From Halobacteriales archaeon SW_10_66_29 (GTDB lineage: Archaea; Halobacteriota; Halobacteria; Halobacteriales; Haloarculaceae), in the NCBI GenBank assembly GCA_003022845.1, contig PXSF01000070.1:1-33231 (forward strand): 33,231 nt of DNA, given 5' to 3'. The position numbers and the translations under genes are program-made. The notes beneath the pieces are model-generated. The model was not told where the DNA came from and did no database searches. It saw nothing but the letters and a program-made list of their open reading frames with translations. Every line of letters starts with the position of its first letter. Within the stretch, counting starts at the first letter, position 1. Positions 140 to 5,185 of this stretch are shown here, one piece after another.

Positions 140-892
140 TCAGGCCCGGTCGGCCAGCGCCGCCAGCGTGACCGCCACGCCGACCAGCGCGAGGGCGGCG
201 CCAGCGGTCAGATCGGCGCTCTCGCTGCCGAGCGCGCCAGCGCCGCCGTCGAACGCGATCCAGGCGCCGTAGCCGACGCCGGCGGCGACCAGCGCCGCCC
301 CGGCGAGCCCGGCGAGGATGGCGCCGGTCGGTCCCAGCCGGCCCGGCTGTCTGTTCTCCTCGTAGCGCTCCAGCGTCGACCACATGACGGCCTCGACGTT
401 GTCCTGGAGGTGTTCGACCTGGCCCTGCAGGTAGTTGTTGAGCGTCTCCTCGTGTTCGTCCAGTTGCGCTTTCCGCTCGGCGAGCTCCTGCTCCTGGGCC
501 TCGATCTCGCGTTCGCGCTCGTCAAGCGCCTGCTCGCGCTTGTTCAGGCTGACCTTCCTGTCCTGGAGCTGTCCCCGGAGCTCCGAAAGCTCCTCCCGGC
601 GCTCGTCGAGCTCCCGCTCGCGTTCGTCGAGCTCTCGTTCCCGCTCGTGGAGGGCTGTTTCACGCTCGTCGAGCTCCTCGGCCTGCTTCTCGATGCCCTT
701 CTCGCGCTGGTCCAGCGCGCGCTCGCGCTCGTCCAGTTCGGCCTCCCGGCTGTCGGCGCCGTCGCCGTCGCCGCTGGGTGTCCCCTCGCCGCCCGTGCCG
801 TCGGCTGTCGCCCCGTCCGCCGGTTCGTCACCGTTCGCGGCGCTCTCGGCGGGCGGCTCGTCGGAGTGCTGGCGGTCCGTTTCGTCGACCAT
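140..892 (-). CDS. Coiled-coil protein with two C-terminal membrane segments
   Basis: Predicted 250-aa protein of unknown function. The first ~60 residues are acidic and low complexity. A long heptad-like coiled coil follows, built from repeats such as ELDERERALDQREKG and ELDERERELDERREEL (roughly residues 60-170). Two hydrophobic segments close the protein (GAILAGLAGAALVAAGVGYG and LTAGAALALVGVAVTLAALA), so it is probably membrane anchored with the coiled coil projecting from one face. I chose the ATG at 892 (MVDETDRQ) over the longer track start because a TATA-like element lies ~29 nt upstream and the extra N-terminal residues are arginine-rich antisense-like sequence. It diverges from topA. 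Coiled-coil repeats make homology misleading, so I assign no function. Confidence 0.75.
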   Translation of the reverse strand: MVDETDRQHSDEPPAESAANGDEPADGATADGTGGEGTPSGDGDGADSREAELDERERALDQREKGIEKQAEELDERETALHERERELDERERELDERREELSELRGQLQDRKVSLNKREQALDEREREIEAQEQELAERKAQLDEHEETLNNYLQGQVEHLQDNVEAVMWSTLERYEENRQPGRLGPTGAILAGLAGAALVAAGVGYGAWIAFDGGAGALGSESADLTAGAALALVGVAVTLAALADRA

Positions 893-958: not shown

Positions 959-1019
959 CGCACGCACGCGCCACGCACGCGCCGCGCATGCATCGCGCAC
1001 GCGCCGTGCACACCCGCGC
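959..1019. repeat. Alternating pyrimidine-purine tract (Z-DNA-prone) upstream of topA
   Basis: About 60 nt read almost entirely as alternating Y-R steps. The runs are 959-971, 972-982, 983-993, 994-1004 and 1005-1013, then a short CGCGC. Each run is broken only by a single C-C step, and the middle runs are all 11 nt long. CACGCACGCGC-like units recur. Such CG/CA alternation is the classic composition for a B-to-Z transition under negative supercoiling. It lies between the coiled-coil gene and the topoisomerase I gene, ~75 nt before the topA start. Confidence 0.6.
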
Positions 1020-1040
1020 TGTCTGTCGGTTTCTCGAAAG

Positions 1041-1049
1041 GCTTTAGAG
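1041..1049 (+). promoter_or_regulatory. Candidate TATA box of topA
   Basis: GCTTTAGAG is the only TATA-like AT-rich element in the GC-rich leader and lies ~45 nt before the GTG start at 1092. A short 5' leader is implied. The assignment is weak because the box is poor. Confidence 0.3.
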
Positions 1050-1091
1050 GGGATCACGGCCTAGGGGTGACAACGAGACGGTGACCCCCAC

Positions 1092-4000
1092 GTGCAACTC
1101 ATCATCACCGAGAAGGACAACGCGGCCCGGCGGATCGCCGAGATTCTGAGCGACGGCAGCGCGACGGCGGAGCGCCACAACGGCGTCAACGTCTACCGCT
1201 GGGGCGGCACGCGCGTCGTCGGCCTGTCGGGGCACGTGGTCGGGCTGGACTTCCCCGAGGAGTACAGCAACTGGCGCGACGTCGAGCCGGTCGAGCTGAT
1301 CGACGCGGAGATCGTTACCGAGCCCACCCAGGAGAACATCGTCGGGACGCTCCGGGCGCTCGCGCGGGAGGCCGACGAGGCGATCATCGCCACCGACTAC
1401 GACCGCGAGGGGGAGCTGATCGGCAAGGAGGCCTACGAGCTCGTCCGCGAGGAGATCGACGGCCCGATCAACCGGGTCCGGTTCTCCTCGATCACCGACA
1501 CCGAGGTCCGCGGGGCGTTCGCCGAACCCGACGAGCTGGACTTCGACCTCGCGGCCGCCGGCGAGGCCCGCCAGATCATCGACCTCATCTGGGGCGCCGC
1601 CCTCACTCGGTTCCTCTCGCTGTCGGCCGGCCGAAGCTGATCGTCGACCGCGAGCGCGAGATCCAGGCGTTCGAGCCTGAAACGTACTGGGAGCTGTTTG
1701 CGGACCTCGGGAAAAACACCGCCGAGGGAACCTCGGCGAGCCGCGACGGAACTGGCGCTCCGTCGGACGGCGACGAGTTCGAGGCGCAGTACTTCTACGA
1801 GGACGACGGCACCGAGGCCGAACGCGTCTGGGAGCAGGAGGCCGCCGAGTCGGTCCACGAGAAACTGCGGGCCGCCGAGGCGGCGACCGTCACGTCGGTC
1901 AGTGAGCGCACCCGCACCGACAGCCCGCCCGAGCCGTTCAACACCACCGCGTTCATCAGCGCCGCCGGCTCGCTGGGCTACTCCGCCCAGCGCGCCATGT
2001 CCATCGCCGAGGAGCTGTACACCGCCGGCTACGTCACCTACCCCCGCACCGACAACACGGTCTACCCCGACGACCTCGAACCGGACACACTCCTGGATTC
2101 CTTCGTGGGAAGCACGGAGTTCGGCGAGGACGCCCGCTCGCTGCTCGAACTGGACGACATCGAGCCGACGCGGGGCGACGAGGAGACGACCGATCACCCG
2201 CCGATCCATCCCACGGACGAGCTGCCGGCGCGGGGCGATCTGAGCAGCGACGAGTGGGAGATCTACGAGCTGATCGTCCGGCGCTTTTTTGCGACCGTCG
2301 CGGAGCCGGCGACGTGGGCGCACCTGCGCGTGGTCGCGGAGGCCAACGGCTGCCGGCTGAAGGCCAACGGCAAGCGGCTGGTCGAGGCGGGCTACCACGC
2401 AGTGTACCCCTACGCCAGCACCAGCGAGAACTACGTCCCCGCCGTCGAGGAGGGCGAACGGCTGGCGCTCCGCGGCGTGGAGTTCGAGGAGAAGGAGACC
2501 CAGCCGCCGCGGCGGTACGGCCAGAGCCGGCTGATCCGGAAGATGGAGGAGATGGGGGTGGGGACGAAATGCTTGGCTGCAGATACGCCGGTTCTTCATC
2601 GTAATCAGGACGGAGATATTATTCGAACTCCAGTTTCCGATCTGTTCACTGAAGAATCTATCGTACTGGCGGATGGTAATACGGACATTGCAGTCAACGA
2701 TAGAGGGCCGACAACGCTTTCAATCGAAGAAAAGAGTAACCGCGTGACTGAACGACAAAAGACACTAATAAGCAGGCGCCCACTCGAACCCCACGAACAG
2801 GTCTTCCGGATCACTACGGTGAACGGTACCTTCTCAGTAACCACTGATCATCCGATCTACCGGAGTACTAGCGACGGATTCGAAGTCGTTCCTGCCTCCG
2901 AAGTTTCTCGGGGCGACTGTTTGTTGTCTACTCGCCAGGAGACCTCCATCGACTACGAGGGAGACGCCTCCATCATTACCTGGCCAGAGTTTGCTTCTTC
3001 GTGCGATATCTCTTCGAAGCTGTACGGTTCGAATTGCGGGAACCGGATTGCTGAAATCCGAAACAAACGGAACGAAACCCAGTATGAATTGGCCGGCCGG
3101 GTTGGTGTGGATCGGACGGCGCTCAGTGACTACGAGAACGGAAAACGCGACGTGCCGGTATGGATTCTCGGAGAACTCGAGATTCGTCCCGAAACACTCC
3201 ATGGATTGAATTACGATTTGGAGTTCGAGAACCCGTTCCCCCTTTATTGGAGTCCGGAACTCCTTCGGATAGTAGCGCATCTCCTTGGAGACGGATCGAT
3301 CCACGTAAACGATGAAGAGAACACTGTTGATGTCCGGTACCACAGTACCGACCACCGTCTCATCAGCCAGTTTGTTTCAGATATCCAGACTTTATTTGGG
3401 TTTACTCCGACTGTCTCTGAGCGAGATGGCCGGAAAAATCATCATAAAAGACGGTATCAAGTGAATCTCCCTGGTGCCGTAGGACGGATTCTGAAGTATA
3501 TTCTCGATACAGTGGTCGCACAGGCCTGTCCAGACGTCCCTGAACAGTTAGAGGCCTTGTTTGTCGGCGCACTGTTCGACGACGAGGGGCACATCTCACG
3601 AGAGAGGAAAATCTTCATATCGAATACTGATCACGGATTGCTCGCTGGAGTCTCGGAAATGCTTGGACGGATGAATATAGAGGCCAAGCTTGCGACGAAT
3701 CAGCACAAGCTCCATGTGAGGGGACGACAAAACGTCGAGCGGTTCCTCGATATCATACCCATTGCAGCTGATGAGAAGTTCTACCGTGGTCTTGATGCAC
3801 TTCGAGAGTACGACGTAGTCAAACGCAAGGCACTACTACTCGAATTGGCAGCTACTGAGCCGAAGAGTTCCGAAGAACTTGCGACACGTCTCGGAATCTC
3901 TCGAGGTCGGGTGAACGCTTACGTCCGAGAATTACGTGATGCGGGACACTTGGAAAAGAAGGTCGAAGGGAGTAATCGATCTAAGGATGGGCTTCGGACG

Positions 4001-5185
4001 ATCCGATACACTGCAACTTCGTTCAAGCAATCTATATACGCGACTGTACTCGATTATCCCGCTGAAATCGAGGTAATTGACGTTGAAGAACGCGATTACG
4101 ACGGTAATGTATATGACTTAACGATAGACGAGGCTGCACCGAACTTCGCCGTTCAGGGCGGCCCAGTCGTCCACAACTCGACGCGCCACCACACCATCGA
4201 GAAGCTGTACGACCGGGGGTACGTCGAGGACGACCCGCCGCGGCCGACGGCGCTGGCGGAGGCGGTCGTCGAGGCCGCCGAGGCGTTCGCGGATCTGGTC
4301 GTGAGCGAGGAGATGACCGCGCAACTGGAGCAGGACATGACGGCCATCGCCAACGGGGAGGCGACGCTCGAGGCGGTGACCGAGGAGTCACGGGAGATGC
4401 TCGAACAGGTGTTCGCGGAGCTGCGCAACTCCCGCGAGGACATCGGCGAGCACCTCCGGGAGTCGCTGAAGGCCGACCGACAGCTGGGCCCGTGTCCCGA
4501 CTGCGGCGAGACGCTTTTGGTCCGCCAGAGCAGCCGGGGGTCGTACTTCGTCGGCTGCGACGGGTTCCCCGACTGCCGGTACACGCTCCCGCTGCCCAGC
4601 ACCGGCGAGCCGCTCGTGCTCGACGACGTCTGCGAGGACCACGACATGCACCACGTGAAGATGCTCGCTGGCCGGGACACGTTCGTCCACGGCTGCCCGC
4701 GGTGTGCCGCCGACGCCGCCGACGAGAGCGAGGACCGTGTCATCGGCGCCTGCCCCGACTGCGGCGCGGAGCACGGCGGCGAACTCGCGATCAAACAGCT
4801 CCGGTCGGGCTCGCGGCTGGTCGGCTGCACCCGCTACCCAGACTGCGAGTACTCGCTGCCGCTGCCCCGCCGCGGCGACATCGAGGTCACCGACGCGCAC
4901 TGCGAGGAGCACGGCCTCCCCGAACTCCACGTCCACGACGGCGACGACGAGCCCTGGGAGCTGGGCTGTCCGATCTGCAACTACAGGGAGTACCAGGCCG
5001 AGCAGGCGATCGACGACCTCGAAGACGTCAACGGGATCGGCGAGGCGACCGCCGGGAAGCTGGGCGCGGTCGGCGTCGACTCCCCCGAGGACCTCCGCGA
5101 GGCCGACCCCGACAGCCTGGCCGACCAGCTCCAGGGCGTCACCGCAGACCAGCTCCGGGACTGGCAGGGACAGCTGGCCGACTGA
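1092..5185 (+). pseudogene. topA: DNA topoisomerase I (type IA), intein-containing, frame disrupted near 1630
   Basis: Type IA topoisomerases relax negatively supercoiled DNA through a 5'-phosphotyrosine. The N-terminal part (1092-1640, GTG start, MQLIITEKDNAARRIA) carries the TOPRIM domain with the metal motif TDYDREGE. It then runs through ALTRFLSLSAGRS into a TGA at 1638-1640. Reading resumes in another frame at KLIVDREREIQAFEPE (from ~1634) and continues to 5185. That part holds the catalytic tyrosine in TYPRTDN, an intein at GVGTK/STR, four Cys-rich zinc-ribbon segments (CPDC, GCPRC, CPDC, GCPIC) and a C-terminal helix-hairpin-helix region (DVNGIGEATAGKLG). About 15-17 residues that family members have between LSLSA and KLIVDRE, including the GRVQ motif, are absent. 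The total length (4094 nt) is not a multiple of three. The identity is certain. Whether the lesion is real or a sequence/assembly error cannot be decided here. The downstream open frame on the ORF track starts at 1997. Confidence 0.9.
2570..4177 (+). mobile_element. TopA intein with LAGLIDADG endonuclease and two HTH modules
   Basis: In-frame 536-residue intein. It begins at Cys (CLAADTPVL, block A), has block B (FSVTTDHPIYR) and ends in FAVQGGPVVHN with Ser as the next extein residue. It sits exactly inside the conserved topoisomerase motif GVGTK/STRHHTIEKLYDRGY. Two LAGLIDADG-type helices are visible: RIVAHLLGDGSI (about intein residue 235) and LFVGALFDDEGHI (about 335). Unusually, an XRE-like HTH (IAEIRNKRNETQYELAGRV..., about 155-200) precedes the endonuclease. 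A winged-HTH-like segment (ELATRLGISRGRVNAYVREL, about 425-465) follows it. Base and codon use are visibly less GC-rich than in the extein, consistent with horizontal acquisition. All splicing blocks look intact, so the intein itself appears functional although the host gene is broken upstream. Confidence 0.93.

Follow-up and report, generated by a model that had tools for sequence, protein, structure and literature searches.

Sequence comparisons support a Z-prone element conserved at the topA promoters of haloarchaea, with a sister tract at gyrB

Results

In haloarchaea, the DNA upstream of topA, the gene for topoisomerase I, is rich in alternating pyrimidine-purine stretches of unusually low computed B-Z energy, and most promoters of the opposing gyrase gene gyrB carry a tract of the same kind. 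Our best reading, to which we assign a probability of about one half, is that a supercoiling-sensitive, Z-prone promoter element is common to the two opposing topoisomerase genes. The window, i.e., the whole stretch of 33,231 nucleotides that was analysed, is part of a haloarchaeal metagenome-assembled genome (MAG) of the Haloarculaceae. Its alternating tract may well form the 5' arm, variable and here lengthened, of a topA promoter element that is Z-prone and conserved, and the gyrB promoter would carry a sister element.

Positions 959-1013 of the window read as five pyrimidine-purine runs of 13, 11, 11, 11 and 9 nt (CGCACGCACGCGC, CACGCACGCGC, CGCGCATGCAT, CGCGCACGCGC and CGTGCACAC), with CCGCGC directly 3' of the fifth run. 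The original prediction had described an alternating tract at 959-1019 with middle blocks of 11 nt each, and both points were confirmed by direct reading, by TRF (period 11, 5.3 copies, 76% matches) and by the Z-energy, which is the lowest in the window. It had also claimed single C-C breaks between the blocks; this is correct for most boundaries, which read C/C, while one reads T/C. B-Z energies were obtained with a re-implemented version of Z-hunt, the energy table of which is internally consistent. The resulting order is sensible, because flipping is predicted at a sigma of -0.033 for (CG)12 and of -0.056 for ordinary upstream regions. For the tract, the computation, which had likewise been proposed beforehand, yields a delta-Lk of 18.1 on a pBR322-sized circle, a sigma of about -0.044 and a Z-score of about 9e4. 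Of all 24-mers in the window, the two with the lowest energy (starts 959 and 994) both reside within the tract. Their values are 14.2 and just under 16, and no 24-mer gets down to 16 in a 242-kb sample of this genome; the lowest 48-mer energy is 35.7 in the tract as compared to 41.9 across these 242 kb. The tract is more Z-prone than all 726 other upstream regions compared and combines the features of Z-DNA-forming sequences, namely purine-pyrimidine alternation, richness in CG and low computed B-Z energy. A cruciform at topA was also considered and rejected, as inverted repeats are absent in 600-1300.

The position directly upstream of topA, also part of the original prediction, was verified. 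The downstream gene starts with GTG at position 1092 and encodes Toprim and Topoisom_bac domains, and BRE and TATA box are located between tract and gene (Table 1). Both promoter elements were assigned by position and by the known layout of haloarchaeal promoters. The intergenic region, the middle of which is occupied by the tract, is bounded on the other side by the start of a divergently oriented gene for a coiled-coil protein. Inside the latter, 21-nt tandem repeats at 588-676 probably encode heptad-like repeats. The topA gene itself is broken in the window: the two closest relatives have 49 additional nt after about position 1632 (1628-1640), and their lack in the window shifts the frame. 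The gene is intact in relatives, and the break is possibly an assembly error of the MAG. The remainder of topA contains an intein (2570-4177, ends judged from the sequence) with LAGLIDADG, HTH and splicing domains, and long open frames suggest that other haloarchaea, too, may have inteins in topA or gyrB.

Table 1 Features of the topA locus in the window and locations of related elements in other haloarchaeal loci.
Feature	Position	Strand	Basis
Divergent gene, coiled-coil protein with RNase_Y_N-like region	140..892	-	ORF, domains
Z-prone tract, five pyrimidine-purine runs followed by CCGCGC; candidate variable 5' arm of the topA promoter element	959..1019	not assigned	read directly, TRF, Z-energy
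Conserved topA promoter core CACACCCGCGCTGTC-tgt-CGGTTT, overlapping the 3' end of the tract	1009..1032	+	alignment of relatives
BRE CGAAAG (1035-1040) and TATA box GCTTTAGA (1041-1048) of topA	1035..1048	+	conserved in alignments
Probable Shine-Dalgarno motif GGTGA of topA	1080..1084	+	sequence
topA, first part, start codon GTG 1092: Toprim, start of Topoisom_bac	1092..1640	+	ORF, domains
topA, remainder in another frame (ORF counted from first ATG), with intein	1997..5185	+	ORF, domains
Z-prone stretch in Halorubrum	L097:14807-14955, L094:11444, L105:14940, L092:14815-14965, L099:14781-14918		
CGCGCWGTCnTGCGRTTT-like element	L160:1500, L166:1500, L170:1500, L276-L279, L283, others	some listed in minus-strand coordinates	

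Across haloarchaea, 58 of 81 topA upstream regions align to the consensus CG-CRYRC-S-CGCGC-W-GTC-nnn-CGRTTT, followed by CGAAAG and a TATA box, although the lowest-scoring of these 58 are doubtful. The core CACACCCGCGCTGTC-tgt-CGGTTT is continuous with the 3' end of the tract and nearly invariant in distant relatives. The records nearest to the window are PXRK01000023.1 and PXSQ01000068.1, with identities of 98% and 96%, respectively, across the TopA N-terminus. The 5' arm, i.e., the tract, differs in length and letters even among the three closest genomes: the block lengths of 13, 11, 11, 11 and 9 nt in the window stand against 12, 12, 11 and 9 nt and 12, 12 and 9 nt in the relatives. Because of this variability, 11-nt blocks have no meaning on their own, and the proposal that each block corresponds to about one helical turn had to be abandoned along with helical phasing at 11 nt in general. 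A minisatellite with a fixed 11-nt unit is rejected for the same reason, as the unit length is not kept. In a more general form of this explanation, slippage in GC-rich intergenic DNA has created a functionless 11-nt repeat. The TRF period and the unequal tract length among the three closest relatives are in line with such neutral origin. It is nevertheless very unlikely, given that the tract is unmatched in the 242-kb genome sample and that the enrichment at topA extends across 42 genera with a fixed position relative to the BRE. The proposed comparison of topA upstream regions in relatives thus gave a divided answer. Tracts of this kind are present in many families, but most of the Halovenus-like genomes in the genus of the window lack both element and tract, which have apparently been lost. 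The topA upstream regions of Haladaptatus, Halohasta and Actinarchaeum lack them as well.

Equal frequency of such tracts at other upstream sites had been named as an outcome that would speak against the original prediction, and this is not what we observed. Within 200 nt upstream, the best 24-bp Z-energy has a median of 18.2 for topA from 74 haloarchaeal genomes; the 20-kb loci around these genes also supplied 726 other upstream regions, for which the median is 25.2 (MWU, p about 7e-25). Here and below, p-values overstate independence because the species are related. When the data are collapsed by genus, topA is more Z-prone in 37 of 42 genera (sign test, p 4e-7). GC content and region length were rejected as causes: topA remains lower when the background is limited to regions of at least 150 nt with a GC content above 0.6 (median 24.0, p 2e-17), and the z value against mononucleotide shuffles has a median of -2.8 for topA and a mean of +0.13 for the background. 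An effect of divergent neighbours counted as background was rejected as well. The result is unchanged after removal of the neighbours that share the topA region; the 1% point of the background is then 18.2, and about half of the topA promoters therefore fall into the top 1%. The signal is strongest at distances of up to 60 nt from the BRE, where 42% of the topA regions are at or below 18.2, and the part of the topA upstream region located farther away is enriched as well (7% versus 0.3%).

The gyrB promoter offers a parallel that the original prediction did not foresee, with a tract even more Z-prone than at topA. Most gyrB promoters carry an alternating tract, e.g., CACGCACGCGCGAGCGCGTACGTG, that ends 2-4 nt before the TATA box and is often palindromic; the median Z-energy of 59 such promoters is 17.4. 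Alternation in the 18 nt before TATA amounts to 0.86, compared with 0.51 for 150 other promoters with a TATA box and 0.50 immediately upstream in gyrB itself, and values of at least 0.75 are found for 88% of the gyrB promoters versus 1.3% of the others. Additional gyrB regions agree, including that of the closest relative (G006, energy 14.1). The tract is absent in two sampled families (G031 and G033), and the MAG itself, which is 64% complete, yielded no gyrB match. Flipping is predicted near a sigma of -0.041 to -0.046 for the topA and gyrB tracts as opposed to -0.056 for ordinary upstream regions. In samples from three families, picked in the knowledge that both genes had tracts, gyrB always ranks first in Z-propensity, while topA is second among 366 upstream regions (G019), second among 228 (G029) and fourth among 190 (G028). 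The comparison of 74 topA with 726 other regions, the 59 gyrB promoters, the genus sign test and the TATA-anchored alternation are free of such selection. Note that a further upstream region in the G028 sample, TGCGCGCGTACGCGCGCGCGGGAG (L385:6939), ranks between gyrB and topA. Near topA, Halorubrum species share a further intergenic stretch that is Z-prone and in part palindromic (GTGCGCGCCGCGCGCAC ... CCACCGTACTTCTTTACGCGTCT); it separates two divergent genes (Table 1). The candidate for a third Z-prone topoisomerase promoter, top6B, was dismissed: its signal occurs only where the divergent region is common with gyrB, and the median is 25.9.

The two tracts are positioned differently. The gyrB tract directly adjoins the BRE beside TATA or overlaps it, whereas that of topA ends about 15 nt before the canonical BRE. 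One alternative explanation is that the gyrB tract is an unusual BRE recognised by one TFB paralogue in particular, while the topA core acts as an upstream activator site; they would then be unrelated, with a coincidental Z-propensity. It fits that the gyrB tract sits in the BRE position, that topA has its canonical CGAAAG BRE further down and that several TFB genes are mentioned for haloarchaea in PMC2121645. However, two independent sites would then have to occur exactly at opposing topoisomerase genes and both end up at the head of the ranking by Z-propensity, which makes this explanation improbable.

The substitution patterns distinguish two kinds of columns. CGCGC, GTC and CGRTTT are conserved by letters, whereas CRYRC and parts of the gyrB tract are not. 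Among the non-consensus letters in topA CRYRC, aligned on CGCGCWGTC alone, 38 are transitions and 19 transversions (17.1 transitions expected, p 1e-8), while flanking columns of the same promoters are devoid of a transition excess (50 to 157 and 55 to 142). As CRYRC varies mainly by transitions, it is alternation rather than letters that is kept. In the gyrB tract, 94 of the 151 non-consensus letters are transitions and the other 57 transversions, where composition would predict 47.6 transitions (p 8e-15; p 5e-10 with 38 unique sequences). This count used an alignment built on the tract itself, which is not the case for the TATA-anchored alternation test. In the alternating parts, the substitutions therefore look as if selection acted on alternation, and CGCGC, GTC and CGRTTT resemble ordinary letter-specific sites.

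The letter-specific columns bring us to the strongest rival explanation, according to which the core (CRYRC-S-CGCGC-W-GTC-nnn-CGRTTT at topA; CGCGCGTGCG[TA]G at gyrB) is the site of one or two regulators binding B-form DNA, with an incidental Z-propensity. The extra blocks in the window genome would then be degenerate additional half-sites or slippage products. Apart from the letter conservation of CGCGC, GTC and CGRTTT, this explanation gains from the palindromic character of many gyrB tracts and from CSCGCWGTCNNNCGRTTT, which is present at loci other than topA and enriched over a reversed control (45 versus 2 in 59 genomes; 24 versus 1 in 245 for a stricter form). Yet the transition bias is confined to the alternating parts and does not extend to the flanks, the tracts reach past the core and differ among genomes while staying alternating, and most CGCGCWGTC copies elsewhere lack the alternating arm. 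Taken together, we consider a B-DNA regulator site with incidental alternation possible but doubtful. Specificity of the CGCGCWGTC..CGRTTT element for topA was rejected, as it recurs at other loci. Elements resembling CGCGCWGTCnTGCGRTTT are also found upstream of other genes, e.g., radA, a thermosome gene and a cetZ/ftsZ-like gene, and of one unnamed conserved ORF (Table 1), and may possibly represent a haloarchaeal regulon motif.

Discussion

If the Z-prone tracts indeed serve as supercoiling-sensitive promoter elements, selection would favour keeping purine-pyrimidine alternation, and with it the B-to-Z flip under negative superhelical stress, over keeping exact letters. The tract would flip to the Z-form once the chromosome becomes too negatively supercoiled. 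At gyrB, the Z-form or a B-Z junction beside TATA would hinder TFB/TBP, resulting in less gyrase synthesis, and relaxation would bring back the B-form and induce gyrB. At topA, where BRE/TATA is intact and the tract lies some 15-80 nt upstream of it, the flip may alter local twist or access to GTCnnnCGRTTT, a site that is probably bound by a regulator. The sequences show the position, computed Z-propensity, class-wide enrichment and transition bias of the tracts as well as the gyrB parallel, whereas Z formation in cells, its regulatory effect and the sign of that effect are inferred. Only tentatively do we extend this reading to the Halobacteria as a class, which would maintain supercoiling homeostasis via B-Z switching tracts in the two promoters: at gyrB, the tract would coincide with the BRE and repress in its flipped state, and at topA it would lie upstream. 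This would amount to a protein-independent, class-wide sensor in which alternation is selected.

Published responses to novobiocin bear on these predictions. The compound induces gyrB of Haloferax up to 20-fold, as cited in PMC9348778, and stimulates gyrase as well as type I topoisomerases in Hbt. salinarum R1 (PMC3184054). Homeostasis predicts that topA falls and gyrase rises upon relaxation; the increase in type I topoisomerases therefore argues against it for topA, and the data do not fit a simple feedback of the kind "more negative supercoils, more TopA". Strain R1 carries a gyrB mutation and shows an anomalous bop response (PMC3184054). Structural or expression experiments on topA or gyrB promoters were not found in the literature searched.

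An RY box in the bop promoter of Halobacterium was reportedly described by Yang, Kim, Molinari and DasSarma in 1996 (J Bacteriol 178:840). While bop is the gene for bacteriorhodopsin, topA and gyrB encode opposing topoisomerases, and their tracts, known here from sequence, are longer and conserved across the class. In bop-type RY-box promoters, an alternating stretch at or next to TATA and a supercoiling-dependent activity are expected; the gyrB tract ends 2-4 nt before TATA and that of topA about 15 nt before the BRE. Natural Z-DNA-forming sequences, likewise residing in a haloarchaeal chromosome, have been described for Halobacterium halobium (Kim and DasSarma 1996, J Biol Chem 271:19724, as cited in PMC1971269), and the literature searched contained no link between them and topA or gyrB. 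In mycobacteria, the promoter of topA responds to supercoiling, leading to autoregulation (PMC4770202). It likewise belongs to a topoisomerase I gene, and for haloarchaeal topA we infer such a response. The mycobacterial promoter senses supercoiling through a suboptimal spacer between -35 and -10 (twist model), and Z-DNA is not mentioned (PMC4770202); a spacer of this kind does not exist in the archaeal TATA/BRE promoter. The gyrase genes of E. coli are under homeostatic control (Menzel and Gellert 1983, as cited in PMC3184054). Opposing topoisomerase genes are thus subject to supercoiling feedback there too, albeit from bacterial sigma-factor promoters. We know of no comparable conserved alternating tract at the E. 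coli gyrase genes. The topA/gyrB element joins the bop RY box and the supercoiling-controlled bacterial topoisomerase genes, which were already known. No report of Z-prone elements at haloarchaeal topA or gyrB was found, which is weak evidence of absence as most subscription papers were outside the search.

The interest of the element derives mainly from its class-wide pattern and from the simplicity of the test. How archaea equipped with gyrase sense and set supercoiling is an open question, and few clear physiological roles have been assigned to Z-DNA in prokaryotes. A Z-prone element at exactly two opposing topoisomerase genes would constitute a cis sensor that can be tested directly in the tractable Haloferax volcanii and Halobacterium salinarum, and it may account for the long-known strong induction of haloarchaeal gyrB by novobiocin. 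It suggests that the DNA itself may sense twist and adjust topoisomerase I and gyrase.
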